A stretch of 58,557 nucleotides of DNA from contig PMOB01000007.1 of the NCBI GenBank assembly GCA_003161615.1, positions 98,567-157,123 of the forward strand. The letters are read 5' to 3'. The notes beneath the pieces were generated by a model. It searched no databases. It was not told where the DNA came from and saw only the letters and a program-made list of their open reading frames with translations. The DNA is from Actinomycetota bacterium. Its GTDB lineage: Bacteria > Actinomycetota > Thermoleophilia > Gaiellales > Gaiellaceae. A program made the position numbers and the translations under genes. This document shows, in pieces, positions 8,091-50,014 of this stretch; positions within the stretch are counted from its first letter, which is position 1; each line of letters opens with the position of its first letter.

Positions 8091-8894
8091 CTAGCCCTGG
8101 CGCAAAACGAGCTCCGTCGCCTCCGGGCGCGCGGCGAACCGGAACGGGACGAAGGTCGTCCCGAGCCCCGCGGAGACGTGCATCGTCGCGGCGGCCGTGC
8201 GATAGGCGCCCGCCGTGTACGGGGTGGTCGGGTGCGCGAGCGGAATCTTTCCGCCCGGATACGGCAGGCAGATCTGGCCGTCGTGGAGGTGACCCGCGAG
8301 GACGAGGTCGAAGCGACCCGGCTCGAGCATGTCGAGGACGCGCGGGTAGTGGCAGAGGAGGATCTTCAAATCCGCCTTCCGCGCGAGCGTGTTCGGGTCG
8401 AGGCGGGGCCGGCCGCGCAGGATCAAACGCGGGTCGGCGCCGGCGATCCAGACGCTCTTGCCGCGCAACTCGAGCCGCCGCCCCTCGTCGCGCAGCAGCG
8501 TCGCCGGTGCGAGCTCGTGCAGGTCGGAGGCCCGGGCCTGCGGGTCGCGGCTGATCGCGACGTCGTGGTTGCCGAGGATCGCGTACGTCGGCGCGGGAAG
8601 AACCCGCACGAGCCGCCGCAACATCGGCTCGCCGCGCGGATGCGTGAGCAGGTCGCCGGTGAGCACTGTGAGATCCGGGCGCCGCTCGTGCGCCCACTCC
8701 GCTGCCTGCCACGCCGCGCCGATCCCCGGCGAGGGAACGCCGAAATGGAAGTCGGAGAGATGCGCGATCCGGAGGCCGTCGAGCTCCTCCGGCAGCCCAG
8801 GCACCTCCAGCTCGAGCTCACGCAGTCGTACCCAACTCGCCTCGAACGCGCCCCAACCGAGGCCGGCGCCGACGAGGCCGGCGAGCGTCTTCAG
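8091..8894 (-). CDS. Calcineurin-like metallophosphoesterase, apparent CTG start
   Basis: A 267-residue YkuE-like phosphoesterase. Metal-binding motifs are in order: AHLSDFHFG, VLTGDLLTH, ILGNHDVA, LLCHYPRVLD and LAGHLHDGQ. A short hydrophobic N-terminus (KTLAGLVGAGLGWGAF) may anchor it in the membrane. No ATG, GTG or TTG exists between the upstream stop and the first conserved strand. The only plausible start is CTG (8894-8892), which overlaps the sdhE stop as CTGA in the same way other genes here use ATGA, GTGA and TTGA. The substrate is unknown. Confidence 0.88.
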   Translation of the reverse strand: MKTLAGLVGAGLGWGAFEASWVRLRELELEVPGLPEELDGLRIAHLSDFHFGVPSPGIGAAWQAAEWAHERRPDLTVLTGDLLTHPRGEPMLRRLVRVLPAPTYAILGNHDVAISRDPQARASDLHELAPATLLRDEGRRLELRGKSVWIAGADPRLILRGRPRLDPNTLARKADLKILLCHYPRVLDMLEPGRFDLVLAGHLHDGQICLPYPGGKIPLAHPTTPYTAGAYRTAAATMHVSAGLGTTFVPFRFAARPEATELVLRQG

Positions 8895-9796
8895 ACTTCC
8901 AGCCGCTCGAGTGCCGGCCGCGGATCGACGATGTGGCGCTTGAACTTCAGCTCCGACTCCTCGAGCCCGGCGGCGACGCCGACGAGCTGGGCGAGGTGGA
9001 GGATCGGCAACTTGAAACTCCGGCCGGTCGAGGCTTCGAGCTTCTGTTGCCACGCGTCGAGCGAGAGGTGGCAGAGCGGGCACGGCGTGACCATCACGTC
9101 GGCGCCGGCCTCGAGCGCCTGCTCGATGGGCTGGATCAGCTCGCCCATCGCAGTCTCCTCGCGCGCGGCGATGATCGGGAAGCCGCAGCACTTGATCTTC
9201 GCCGGGTAGTCGATCGCCTCGCCGCCACACGCCTCGATGATCCGCTCGAGCGACCACGGCCGGTCGGGATCCTCGAAGCCCATGATCTTCGAGGGCCTCA
9301 AGATCTGGCAGCCGTAGAACGGCGCGACCTTGAGCCCCTTCAGACCCTTGTGCGCGGCCTTCTTGAGCAGCTCGAAGCCGTCGCCCTCCGCGATCTCCCA
9401 GAGGAGGTGCCGGACTTCGACGCCGCCCGAGTACGGCGGCACGCCGACCGTAGTGAGGTTCTCGTTGACGCGGGCGAGGAGGGCGGAGTCGCCCTGCAGC
9501 ATGTGGTTCGCCTGCCGGAGGTTGAGCGTGCAGACGTTGCAGACCGTGAGCAGCGTGTCGCAGCCGGTCGCCTCGGCGTAGGCGAGGATCCTCGCGTTGA
9601 GGTGGACGTAGTAGTCCGGCTCCGCCTCGTGGATGTCGCCGGCGCCGCAGCACGTCACCGACTCGAGCTCGACCAGCTCGAGCCCGACGCGCGGCGCGAG
9701 CGCCTGGGTGGAGGTGTCGAGCTCCTTCGCCGAGAGCGAGGCGAGGCAGCCCTTGTAGTACGCAACCCGCCGCAGCGGAATCTCCGTCGTGCTCAC
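8891..9796 (-). CDS. sdhE: Succinate dehydrogenase subunit E (HdrB-like CCG-domain protein)
   Basis: A 301-residue protein with two cysteine-rich CCG domains: YKGC...VTCCGAGD...TVCNVC and IKCCGFPII...TPCPLCH. This is the HdrB/SdhE architecture that carries an Fe-S cluster and replaces the haem-b membrane anchors in class E succinate dehydrogenases. It passes electrons between SdhB and the quinone pool. I choose GTG 9796: GGAGGAG lies just before it and it overlaps the sdhB stop as GTGA; a further ATG at 9823 is in frame. Third gene of sdhABE. Confidence 0.88.
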   Translation of the reverse strand: MSTTEIPLRRVAYYKGCLASLSAKELDTSTQALAPRVGLELVELESVTCCGAGDIHEAEPDYYVHLNARILAYAEATGCDTLLTVCNVCTLNLRQANHMLQGDSALLARVNENLTTVGVPPYSGGVEVRHLLWEIAEGDGFELLKKAAHKGLKGLKVAPFYGCQILRPSKIMGFEDPDRPWSLERIIEACGGEAIDYPAKIKCCGFPIIAAREETAMGELIQPIEQALEAGADVMVTPCPLCHLSLDAWQQKLEASTGRSFKLPILHLAQLVGVAAGLEESELKFKRHIVDPRPALERLEV

Positions 9797-10887
9797 GCTT
9801 TCTCCTCCACTTCCGGTAGCCATGGTCTCGGCGCGGCGTTCGGCCGCGCGTAAATCTCCTCGAGATCGCCGCCGATCGCGTGCCCGTGCCCGAGCCGCTC
9901 CAGCGCCTTCTCGCCCTGGACGTGTCCCATGGCGCCGCCGCGATCCTGCTCACGGACGAGCTTGTGCAGGTTGCGCGCCTCCCCCACGTCCTTCGCCGTA
10001 TGCGGGAACGGGATCGGGCGAACCTTGCCGTGCTTCGCGAGCGAGATGCCGAACTTGAGCTGCTTGATGGCGGCGACGTAGCCCTGCGTCTTCGGGATCA
10101 GCTCCTCCTCGCGCAGCCACCCCGTCGTCTCCGCCGAGCGGACGAACCACTTCGCGTGCTTCGCGCCCATGTCGCGGTCGATCCCGTGCGCGATCGCCTC
10201 GGCGCCGAGCTTCGCGATCGCGTCGCGCGGGTCGACGCCCTTCGGGCAGCGCTCGTTGCAGAAATAGCAGCGGGTGCAGTCCCAGATCCCGTGCTCTTGG
10301 CTGTACTGCTCGAGCCGTTCGACCTTGGCGCCGTCGCGCGGGTCGCCGACGAAGCGCATCCCTTTCGCGAGCGCCTGCGGGCCGAGGAACTCGGGGTCGG
10401 ACTCCATCGCGTTGCACTCCGAGACGCAACAGCCGCAGTTGATGCAGAGCGCCTCTTTGTGGACGACGTTCATCCGCTCCTGCGTGATCCGGTACTCGCG
10501 CCCGTCATCCGGCTGGTCGTATCCCGGCTGCAGCCACGGCTTCATCGCCATGAACTTGGCCCAGAACGGATCCATGTCGACGACGAGGTCCTTGACGATC
10601 GGAAGATTCCCCATCGCGGAGATCGTCGGGACGCGGCCCTCGTTCGCGATGTCGTACATCCGCGTCTTGCAGGCGAGGACGGCGGCGCCGTCCATCCGCA
10701 TCCCGCAGGAGCCGCAGATCATCATCCGGCAGCTCTTGCGGTAGGCGAGCGAGCCGTCGTGCTTGTCCTTGACGATGTCGAGACAGTCGAGGAGCGTCGC
10801 CTCCTCGGGCGCGTCGATCTCGTACTCGCGCAGCGCGCGCTCGCCGGAGACGGAGTCGTAGCGCCAGATCTTGAAGGCGACCTTCAT
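9793..10887 (-). CDS. sdhB: Succinate dehydrogenase iron-sulfur subunit
   Basis: A 364-residue Fe-S subunit, longer than mitochondrial-type SdhB (about 240). The plant-type [2Fe-2S] site reads SCRMMICGSCGMRMDG with a distal LACKT. Two four-cysteine clusters follow, CINCGCCVSEC and CTRCYFCNERCPKG. The extra C-terminal ~110 residues (from about GWLREEELIP) have no cysteines and may contact SdhE. The start ATG 10887 lies one base after the sdhA stop (TGAGATG). Both clusters have the CxxCxxCxxxC form, consistent with the HdrB-coupled class. Confidence 0.92.
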   Translation of the reverse strand: MKVAFKIWRYDSVSGERALREYEIDAPEEATLLDCLDIVKDKHDGSLAYRKSCRMMICGSCGMRMDGAAVLACKTRMYDIANEGRVPTISAMGNLPIVKDLVVDMDPFWAKFMAMKPWLQPGYDQPDDGREYRITQERMNVVHKEALCINCGCCVSECNAMESDPEFLGPQALAKGMRFVGDPRDGAKVERLEQYSQEHGIWDCTRCYFCNERCPKGVDPRDAIAKLGAEAIAHGIDRDMGAKHAKWFVRSAETTGWLREEELIPKTQGYVAAIKQLKFGISLAKHGKVRPIPFPHTAKDVGEARNLHKLVREQDRGGAMGHVQGEKALERLGHGHAIGGDLEEIYARPNAAPRPWLPEVEEKA

Positions 10888-14005: not shown

Positions 14006-15019
14006 ATGCGTCGACTCCTACTCTTCACCTTCATCCTCCCCGCCGTCCTCGTCTGTGCAAGCGCCGCACAGGCCAAGCAGGCGGGCGCGAACGTCAACCT
14101 CGTCGCCTTCTCAACGACCAAGCCGGTGATGCAGCAGCTGATCACGAAGTGGACGGCGAGCTCCGCGGGGAAGGGCGTCTCGTTCACGCAGTCCTACGGG
14201 CCGTCGGGCTCGCAGGCGCGCGCGATCGCCGCCGGCCAGCCGGCCGACATCGCCCTCCTCTCGAACGCTCTCGACGTCAACACACTCGTCGACGCGGGAC
14301 TCGTGCAGAGGGACTGGACGAAGAAGCTGCCGCAAGGCGGGATCGTCGCGAACTCCGTCGTGGCGTTCGTCGTGCGGCCCGGCAACCCGAAGCACATCCG
14401 GAACTGGAGCGATCTGATCAAGCCTGGCGTCCAGGTCGTGACGCCGAACCCGTTCAGCTCCGGCGGCGCGAAGTGGAACATCCTCGCCGCCTACGGCGCG
14501 ATGCGGAAAACGGGCCAGAGCGACAAGAAGGCGACGGGCTACGTCACCAACCTCTTCCGGCACGTCGTCTCGCAGGACTCCTCGGCCGCGAACGCGATGA
14601 ACACGTTCCTGGCGGGCAAGGGAGACGTCCTGATCACCTACGAGAGCGAGGCGTACACGGCGCTCGCCGCCGGCAGGCACCTCGGCCTCGTCATCCCGAA
14701 GCAGACGATGCTCATCCAGCTGCCGATGGTGCCGCTGGAGAAGGCGCCAAGCCAGGCGAAGCAGTTCATCTCCTATTGCCACACGCCGACTGCGCAGGCG
14801 ATCTTCGCGACCTACGGCTACCGGCCCGTCGTGAAAGCCGTGCTCAACAAGCCGTCGCTCGCCAAGTGGAAGACGCGCTTCGCGGGCGGCTCACGGCTGG
14901 TCTTCCAGATCTCCGACCCGATCTTCGGCGGCTGGCGGAAGGTGAACACGGTCTGGTTCGACCCGAACTCGGGCCGGATGGTGAAGATCGAGCAAGACGT
15001 CGGCGGCCCGACCCATTAG
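14006..15019 (+). CDS. sbp: Sulfate/thiosulfate-binding protein of ABC importer
   Basis: Periplasmic-type substrate-binding protein for sulfate import. The start at ATG 14006 opens a clear signal peptide (MRRLLLFTFILPAVLVCASA, then AQA); the longer frame from 13952 would bury it. Family motifs are GPSGSQARAIAAGQPADI, NPFSSGGAKWNILAAYGA, SQDSSAANAMNTFLAGKGDV and TYESEA. No lipobox cysteine is seen after the signal, so it may be free or anchored another way. First of sbp-cysT-cysW-cysA. Confidence 0.93.
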   Translation: MRRLLLFTFILPAVLVCASAAQAKQAGANVNLVAFSTTKPVMQQLITKWTASSAGKGVSFTQSYGPSGSQARAIAAGQPADIALLSNALDVNTLVDAGLVQRDWTKKLPQGGIVANSVVAFVVRPGNPKHIRNWSDLIKPGVQVVTPNPFSSGGAKWNILAAYGAMRKTGQSDKKATGYVTNLFRHVVSQDSSAANAMNTFLAGKGDVLITYESEAYTALAAGRHLGLVIPKQTMLIQLPMVPLEKAPSQAKQFISYCHTPTAQAIFATYGYRPVVKAVLNKPSLAKWKTRFAGGSRLVFQISDPIFGGWRKVNTVWFDPNSGRMVKIEQDVGGPTH

Positions 15020-15854
15020 CGCGGTCGCCGCAACCGGCGCCCCCGACTCGCACCGGATCGGCGCCGGCGGACGGGCCAGTACGGGCCTGTCCGTCGGCGC
15101 CATCTCGACGTTCCTGACGATCGTCGTCGTCCTCCCCATCGCCGCCCTCGTCTGGGAGTCGAAGAAGGACGGTACGCACGCGTTCTGGCAGGTCGTCTCG
15201 AGCCCGGAAGCGGTATCGGCGCTGAAGCTGACGCTCGGCACCGCCTTCGTCGTCGTCGGAATCAACGCGGTGCTCGGCACCGTGACGGCATGGGTGCTCG
15301 TGCGGGACGACTTCCCCGGCAAGGCGCTCGTGAACGCCGTGATCGACCTGCCGTTCGCGCTACCGACGATCGTCGCCGGCATCACGCTCCTCGCGCTCTA
15401 CGGCCCCCGCTCGCCGGTCGGGGTGGACGTGGCGTTCACACGGACGGCGATCGTGCTGGCGCTCTGTTTCGTCACGCTTCCGTTCGTCATCCGCACCGTG
15501 CAGCCGGTTCTCCACGAGCTCGATGTCGAGATGGAGGAGGCGGCGCGCTCTCTCGGAGCCGGCCAGTTCGCGGTCTTCCGGCGGATCGTTCTGCCCAACC
15601 TCCTGCCGGGAATCCTCTCCGGAGTCGTCCTCGCGCTCGTCCGGGCGCTCGGAGAGATCGGCTCTGTCGTCCTCATCTCGGGGAACAACCCCTTCCACAC
15701 CGAGGTCGCCTCGGTCTACGTCCTGCTCCACATCGAGAGCGGCGACCCGGCGGGAGCCGCCGCGGTGGCGGTCGTGCTCCTCGGAGCAGCCTTCGTGCTG
15801 CTGCTAGCGGTCGGCGCGCTCCGGTTCTACGTCACGAGGCATGAGCGTGCCTAG
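15015..15854 (+). CDS. cysT: Sulfate ABC transporter permease CysT, start codon unclear (ATT or CTG)
   Basis: Membrane subunit of the sulfate importer. The conserved core reads VTAWVLVRDDFPGK, DLPFALPTIVAGITL and EEAARSLGAGQFAVFRRIVL (the EAA loop that contacts CysA). The first usable canonical start is GTG 15270, but that would delete the first helix (LTIVVVLPIAALVW) and the conserved ALKLTLGTAFVVVGINAV segment. The frame is open and codon-biased back to about 15018. The candidate starts are ATT 15015, overlapping the sbp stop (ATTAG), or CTG 15087. With ATT the protein has 279 residues, the normal length. Confidence 0.85.
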   Translation: MSAVAATGAPDSHRIGAGGRASTGLSVGAISTFLTIVVVLPIAALVWESKKDGTHAFWQVVSSPEAVSALKLTLGTAFVVVGINAVLGTVTAWVLVRDDFPGKALVNAVIDLPFALPTIVAGITLLALYGPRSPVGVDVAFTRTAIVLALCFVTLPFVIRTVQPVLHELDVEMEEAARSLGAGQFAVFRRIVLPNLLPGILSGVVLALVRALGEIGSVVLISGNNPFHTEVASVYVLLHIESGDPAGAAAVAVVLLGAAFVLLLAVGALRFYVTRHERA

Positions 15855-48848: not shown

Positions 48849-49292
48849 GTGGCGGCGGTCCGGACGGTTTGGCGCGGGCTTTCGATCCCGCAGTGGATGC
48901 TTTTCGCGTCTCTGCTCGCCTACGCGGGGACATTTATCCTCCTCGAGAACTTCGGACGGCCGGGTCTCGGCATCAGCGGCGGCTTCTACGTCGCCGTGAT
49001 CCTCATGGCCGCCGCGACGAGCCCCATGTCGGGAGGGCTCGCCGGGCTCGGCGCGATCGTTCTCTTCGAGCTCGCGATGCACCACGACCACGGCCTCGCG
49101 TGGGCGGACTTCGACAACGCGCCGGCCCTGACCCATCTTGCGGGCTACCTGGTGGTCGGCCTCCTGACGGGCTGGCTCGCCCTCCGCGGCCGCCGCATGC
49201 TGGCGCAAAGCCTGCATGTGCTCGAGGATCTGATCGAGCTCACCCACGACCGCGCCGACGATGTCGTGCCGGCCCGCGACCTCGCGGACTGA
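48849..49292 (+). CDS. Four-helix membrane protein with cytoplasmic tail
   Basis: A 147-residue protein starting at GTG 48849. Hydrophobic segments IPQWMLFASLLAYAGTFILL, FYVAVILMAAATSPM, GLAGLGAIVLFELAM and ALTHLAGYLVVGLLTGWLAL suggest four helices, followed by a charged tail (HVLEDLIELTHDRADDVV). I do not recognise the family. Its stop is overlapped by a CTG (CTGA), the apparent start of mutY. Confidence 0.6.
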   Translation: MAAVRTVWRGLSIPQWMLFASLLAYAGTFILLENFGRPGLGISGGFYVAVILMAAATSPMSGGLAGLGAIVLFELAMHHDHGLAWADFDNAPALTHLAGYLVVGLLTGWLALRGRRMLAQSLHVLEDLIELTHDRADDVVPARDLAD

Positions 49293-50014
49293 GCCTCCTG
49301 GAGGCGCCGCTCCTCGCCTGGTTCCGTGAGCACGGGCGCGACCTGCCGTGGCGCCGCACGCGGGATCCGTACGCGATCCTCGTCAGCGAGGTGATGGCGC
49401 AGCAGACGCAGATGGAGCGCGTCCTCGCGCGCTGGCAGCGTTGGCTCGACCGCTGGCCGACGGTGGAGGCGCTCGCGGCCGCGACTCCGGCGGACGTGAT
49501 TCGGGCGTGGCAGGGGCTCGGCTACAACCGCCGCGCGCTCGCGCTCCACAACGCCGCGCAGCAGGTCGCTGCGCACGGCTGGCCGGATGACCTAACGGAC
49601 CTGCCCGGCGTCGGCCGCTATACCGCTGACGCGGTCGCGTGCTTCGCCTTCGGACGAGATGTCCTTCCGGTCGACGTCAACGTCCGCCGCGTCTCGGAGC
49701 GCACCGGCCACGCGTTCTCTCCCGCCGCGGCCCAGGCGTTGATGGATCTCGGCAAGAGCGTCTGCCTGGCGCGGGTGCCGCGCTGCGGAATCTGCCCGCT
49801 CGCCGGGGACTGCCCGTCCCGCGGGATGCGCTTCGAGCCGCTGCGCCGGCAAGGGCCGTTCGAGGGCTCGTTCCGGCAGCGGCGCGCCGAAGCGCTGCGC
49901 GCCGTCCTCGCCGGCAGGGAGCCGGACGACTCGGAGGCGATCGCCGCCCTCGCGCGCGACGGCCTGGTCGAGGTGCGCGACGGCGCTGTCTCGCTACCAT
50001 CCCCGGCGCTGTGA
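49289..50014 (+). CDS. mutY: A/G-specific adenine glycosylase MutY, apparent CTG start
   Basis: Removes adenine mispaired with 8-oxoG. Features: WFREHGRDLPWRRTRDPYAI, the catalytic Glu in SEVMAQQTQMERV, the HhH-GPD DLPGVGRYTADAVACFAFG, the catalytic Asp in PVDVNVRRV and the [4Fe-4S] cysteines CLARVPRCGICPLAGDC. The first canonical start (GTG 49391) would delete the catalytic-Glu segment, so initiation must lie earlier: CTG 49289 overlaps the upstream stop as CTGA. At 241 residues it lacks the C-terminal NUDIX-like domain. Stop overlaps next gene (GTGA). Confidence 0.9.
   Translation: MSLLEAPLLAWFREHGRDLPWRRTRDPYAILVSEVMAQQTQMERVLARWQRWLDRWPTVEALAAATPADVIRAWQGLGYNRRALALHNAAQQVAAHGWPDDLTDLPGVGRYTADAVACFAFGRDVLPVDVNVRRVSERTGHAFSPAAAQALMDLGKSVCLARVPRCGICPLAGDCPSRGMRFEPLRRQGPFEGSFRQRRAEALRAVLAGREPDDSEAIAALARDGLVEVRDGAVSLPSPAL

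Follow-up and report, generated by a model that had tools for sequence, protein, structure and literature searches.

Our data indicate that the metallophosphoesterase (MPE) gene located behind an sdhE-like gene in a Gaiellaceae bacterium of the Actinomycetota very probably starts at a CTG codon (CTG 8894) that overlaps the TGA stop of the upstream gene. With a probability of roughly 0.8, we consider that MPE is translated from this codon by termination-reinitiation with the ordinary initiator fMet-tRNA. The window, i.e., the whole stretch of DNA analyzed here, comprises 58,557 nucleotides (GCA_003161615.1, contig PMOB01000007.1, positions 98,567 to 157,123). Comparison of the loci supports where the start lies, that relatives share it, and that no MPE coding lies upstream of it. 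Coordinates of the features are collected in Table 1.

Table 1. Features at the sdhE/MPE junction and further genes with putative CTG starts (window positions unless a locus is named).
Feature	Position	Strand	Description	Basis
CTGA junction	8891..8894	-	CTG of MPE (8894-8892) overlapping sdhE TGA (8893-8891)	sequence and frames; same junction in 26 related loci
MPE	8091..8894	-	267 residues if started at CTG; hydrophobic N-terminal segment followed by SDFH domain	Pfam PF00149, orthologues
sdhE-like CCG-domain gene	8891..9823	-	upstream gene	Pfam PF02754; NCBIfam matches below cut-off
In-frame GTG	8802..8804	-	rival internal MPE start	sequence
In-frame GTGs 9053 and 9083	9051..9083	-	inside sdhE, rival upstream MPE starts	sequence; absent from some relatives
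MutY-like gene	49289-50014	+	CTG 49289 overlapping upstream stop as CTGA, or CTG 49298	
PspAB gene (same genome, contig C33)	L226:4629-5213		only CTG, at CTGA overlap	Pfam PF22742

As the initial annotation described, the overlap takes the form CTGA: sdhE ends in GTC TGA on the minus strand, and the MPE frame reads CTG at the same place. The gene pair fits a four-base stop/start overlap, in which an NTG shares bases with TGA and downstream coding begins there. The sdhE gene itself starts at ATG 9823 or, alternatively, at a GTGA start at 9796. Shifting the reading of any TGA stop back by one base yields an NTG. In the part of the genome that was sampled, the base before TGA was C in 50 cases, G in 32, A in 23, and T in 12. 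Since C is the most frequent base preceding TGA, CTGA is uninformative by itself, and we dropped it as stand-alone evidence of a start. What goes beyond chance, in the sequences compared, is that the position of the CTGA agrees with the position at which homologues start.

We searched for MPE in 103 family genomes, 84 of which had a match at 1e-40 or better, and in 41 genomes taken as relatives. We read the junction in 90 loci (including L027, L028, L126, L140, L029, and L160), of which 26 have a same-frame overlap with the sdhE TGA, 49 have another spacing or stop (48 upon removal of one duplicate), and 15 lack an upstream sdhE. Left out of the start reading were L034 to L110 (38% identity or less) and the partial family matches of G095, G049, G047, G117, and G073, which lack the N-terminus. 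We dropped L030, which is not an orthologue, and three duplicates: L031 (of L003), L032 (of L007), and L033 (of L111).

We found that the codon at the overlap is CTG in 21 of the 26 loci, ATG in 4, and GTG in 1. CTGA recurs in separate assemblies from four genus codes (g1, g6, g34, and g39), all ATGA loci belong to genus code g22, and the single GTGA locus (L162) comes from a bin, G003, that carries another copy too. At the very position of the window's CTG, relatives thus start with canonical codons. This comparison of homologues, which the initial annotation had proposed as a check, supports its reading that MPE starts at CTG. The NTG lies 17-25 codons ahead of a conserved E-A motif in the overlap loci, and the canonical starts of the loci with other spacing lie mostly 20-25 codons ahead of it. 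MPE has CTG where orthologues start canonically and has no better start nearby; the GTG that exists downstream is considered below.

Between the junction and E-A, 15 of 21 CTGA loci contain no ATG, GTG, or TTG; among the 48 loci spaced otherwise, the same holds for L315 alone (Fisher p 1.4e-9, kinship ignored). On the phylogeny, there are 5 well-supported independent pairs (mean 3.8 in favor and 0.0 against, median p 0.125). In four CTGA loci (L003, L129, L144, and L146), the entire frame from the preceding in-frame stop to E-A is devoid of canonical start codons. Canonical codons comprise 4.1% of the MPE body and, by our own arithmetic, approximately 40% of stretches of approximately 21 codons are expected to be free of them by chance; the weight of the argument therefore rests on the contrast with other orthologues and on the ATGA and GTGA relatives. 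C before the sdhE TGA is equally frequent with overlap (21/26) and without overlap (21/26 TGA stops), so there is no sign that the codon is selected for its use as a start. Separately, the sdhE frame of one locus (L005, bin G001) continues into MPE, with approximately 36 sdhE residues and 16 MPE residues gone. This loss sits where both proteins read LEA/FEA and represents either a gene-fusing deletion or an assembly error.

An alternative that we consider unlikely is initiation at GTG 8804, which would yield a shorter enzyme with the whole catalytic domain and no N-terminal hydrophobic segment. The initial annotation had stated that no ATG, GTG, or TTG occurs in frame before SDFH, which is incorrect. 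GTG 8804, the V of LELEVPGLPEEL, is canonical and in frame, lies 30 codons past the CTG and ahead of SDFH, and is directly preceded by GGAG, though without spacing. However, it is located past a conserved GWG-x-FEA-x-W segment that most orthologues of the family keep and that this start would remove. Furthermore, the close relative L007, whose junction is likewise CTGA, lacks canonical codons from the junction to SDFH, and in L002 and L004 the GTG is at a different place. The conclusion that MPE starts at CTG survives the wrong premise.

Less likely still is a start inside sdhE, at GTG 9053 or GTG 9083, which would lengthen the N-terminus by 53 or 63 residues. The MPE frame stays open for a long way upstream, and many relatives have both GTGs, but the four CTGA loci named above have neither of them. 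Across the 63 codons upstream of the junction, CTGA loci of g1 diverge by 0.26/0.07/0.02 at MPE codon positions 1/2/3 (g22 was left out of this comparison since its sdhE ends do not align). Divergence at MPE position 1 thus resembles that of sdhE wobble bases, and an extension would not be conserved. Downstream of E-A the same loci give the MPE pattern (0.17/0.09/0.36), and from the junction to E-A the values are noisy for g1 (0.28/0.35/0.46) and clear for g6 (0.15/0.13/0.41). Since divergence switches from the sdhE frame to the MPE frame across the junction, a longer MPE N-terminus is disfavored, and the MPE coding apparently does not extend into sdhE. A longer N-terminus with an upstream canonical start in homologues would, according to the initial annotation, count against its own reading; both the codon-position divergence and the four loci without any upstream canonical start in the open frame speak against it.

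We regard it as very improbable that MPE is made as an sdhE fusion through frameshifting at the stop, with no new start: the two frames do overlap there, but the slip sites (GTC TGA and ATC TGA) suggest that the P-site tRNA could not re-pair one base back, ATGA and GTGA orthologues need no frameshift, and the genes lie apart in 48 loci, 47 of which have canonical MPE starts. Least probable is that faulty sequencing or assembly put the C of CTG in place of A, G, or T, as might be imagined for a draft genome of 35 contigs, given that CTGA recurs in 21 loci from separately assembled genomes of four genus codes.

MPE belongs to the calcineurin-like metallophosphoesterases (51.6 bits against a Pfam gathering cut-off of 21.5). 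Its residues 9-262 align to positions 19-268 of the 271 positions of the YaeI profile (NCBIfam NF008460), and its length is normal for YaeI when counted from CTG. However, its score of 82.4 bits falls far short of the curated cut-off (188), which makes MPE a relative of YaeI and not an equivalog. The upstream gene contains the CCG domain of Pfam and scores 200.9 bits against the SdhE equivalog NF042965, below the curated cut-off of 500.

We propose that MPE is translated from CTG 8894 as follows. A ribosome terminating sdhE at TGA would already cover the overlapping CUG, and ordinary initiator fMet-tRNA would initiate on CUG although the first position of the codon forms a C-U mismatch. The resulting protein would have 267 residues, a probable membrane anchor, and the N-terminus fMet-Lys-Thr, and its yield would be low and tied to sdhE. 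We infer reinitiation over independent initiation, methionine as the first residue, and low, sdhE-tied expression, and termination-reinitiation seems the most economical account. ARAGORN called three tRNAs as Met (CAT), one of which (L292) has initiator features, including the GGG/CCC anticodon stem that is among the features we take to mark an initiator tRNA. An altered initiator tRNA was sought among the tRNAs and not found; the initiator tRNA looks ordinary. The 45 tRNA matches include no initiator-like CAG tRNA, the sole CAG tRNA being a leucine tRNA. Because the initiator tRNA looks ordinary and the only CAG tRNA found is for leucine, CUG would be read by ordinary fMet-tRNA. The genome also contains a gene for IF3. 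Predicted Shine-Dalgarno pairing is weak at CTGA loci (-0.3 to -5.3 kcal/mol), whereas the four ATGA loci show strong pairing (-7.4 to -8.7 kcal/mol). These g22 loci (L117, L125, L138, and L139) combine the ATGA junction with a strong Shine-Dalgarno sequence inside the sdhE tail.

Published figures place CUG at 0.024% of bacterial start codons, with an efficiency of 0.86% of that of AUG in Escherichia coli (PMC11497404). CTG was not enriched in the mycobacterial selection described in PMC4633059, and one CUG is reported to have bound ribosomes in vitro while being unused in vivo (PMC8443254), which calls for caution in reading CTG as a start. AUGA overlaps are counted by a review among coupled stop-start sites (PMC5972666). 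Our literature search, which covered few subscription journals, turned up no comparable CTGA start in bacteria. On the comparative evidence, MPE is a well-supported, conserved case of a rare and already known type of start; what is unusual is that one junction carries it in four genus codes, with ATG and GTG counterparts in relatives.

We found that CTG starts are recurrent but not general. Approximately 250 kb of the window's genome and 200 kb from each of two relatives (G076 and G083) were sampled with a crude gene caller that uses codon-position G+C only, so that its counts are rough. There were 3 credible genes whose only start is at a CTGA in 247 crude calls of the window's genome, versus 0 in 170 (G076) and 0 in 161 (G083). 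In the stretches of five further relatives, the only such gene was MPE (G009 and G015), and in G011 MPE is cut by the boundary of the stretch. A general family habit of CTG starts is thus unsupported. A fragment at L224:13735, presumably malic-enzyme-like, was rejected as a CTG start and removed from the count since it lies beside an N run.

Two other genes of the same genome likewise have only CTG at a CTGA (Table 1). The MutY-like gene has no canonical codon until GTG 49391, which is past LPWR, and among the matches listed all 29 other family loci have ATG, GTG, or TTG at the place of its start. Among the 29 other PspAB loci listed, 27 carry a canonical start in the corresponding place, L260 gave no clear reading, and L238, from another genus, has only a CTG, which is outside a CTGA and has AGGAG a few bases upstream. 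Further genes were observed without a nearby canonical start. A CysT-like permease (15015-15854, plus strand) has none before GTG 15270 and could start at CTG 15087 or at ATT 15015, which overlaps the upstream stop as ATTAG; this junction is also found in two g1 relatives (L194 and L205). At L231:14101 and L223:18629 of the same genome (both minus strand; genes we take to be PriA-like and acetyltransferase-like, respectively), no canonical codon is near the coding start and a CTG is in place, with no CTGA.

The sdhE/MPE pair shares its four-base overlap and frame relation with ATGA, GTGA, and TTGA translational coupling, of which we counted 47 overlaps near coding starts in the sampled 250 kb, and ATGA and GTGA occur in relatives at the sdhE/MPE junction itself. 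It differs in having CTG and weak Shine-Dalgarno pairing, unlike its ATGA relatives. Non-canonical starts that are repressed by IF3 are described for infC (ATT in E. coli, ATC in Streptomyces) and Streptomyces sigR (GTC) (PMC5472188). MPE would likewise start outside ATG, GTG, and TTG, and sigR is also actinobacterial and part of a translationally coupled pair; however, MPE has CTG rather than ATT, ATC, or GTC and is the downstream gene of its pair.

A broader reading, which we offer tentatively and hold to be rather doubtful, is that CTG serves this lineage as a genuine fourth NTG start codon where a gene overlaps the stop of the preceding one. Such a start would have been kept in one gene by at least four genera, with an output that is low, tied to the upstream gene, and possibly sensitive to IF3, and would have arisen too in MutY and PspAB of the window's genome. 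If this is true, CTG would be the start codon of approximately 1% of this genome's genes (3 of 247 crude calls), far more than the 0.024% quoted for bacterial CUG. Gene finders restricted to ATG, GTG, and TTG, as common programs are, would trim approximately 30 residues, including the membrane segment, off MPE or extend MPE into sdhE. Furthermore, the natural series of ATG, GTG, and CTG at one junction would make the cost of a CTG start in a coupled setting measurable.
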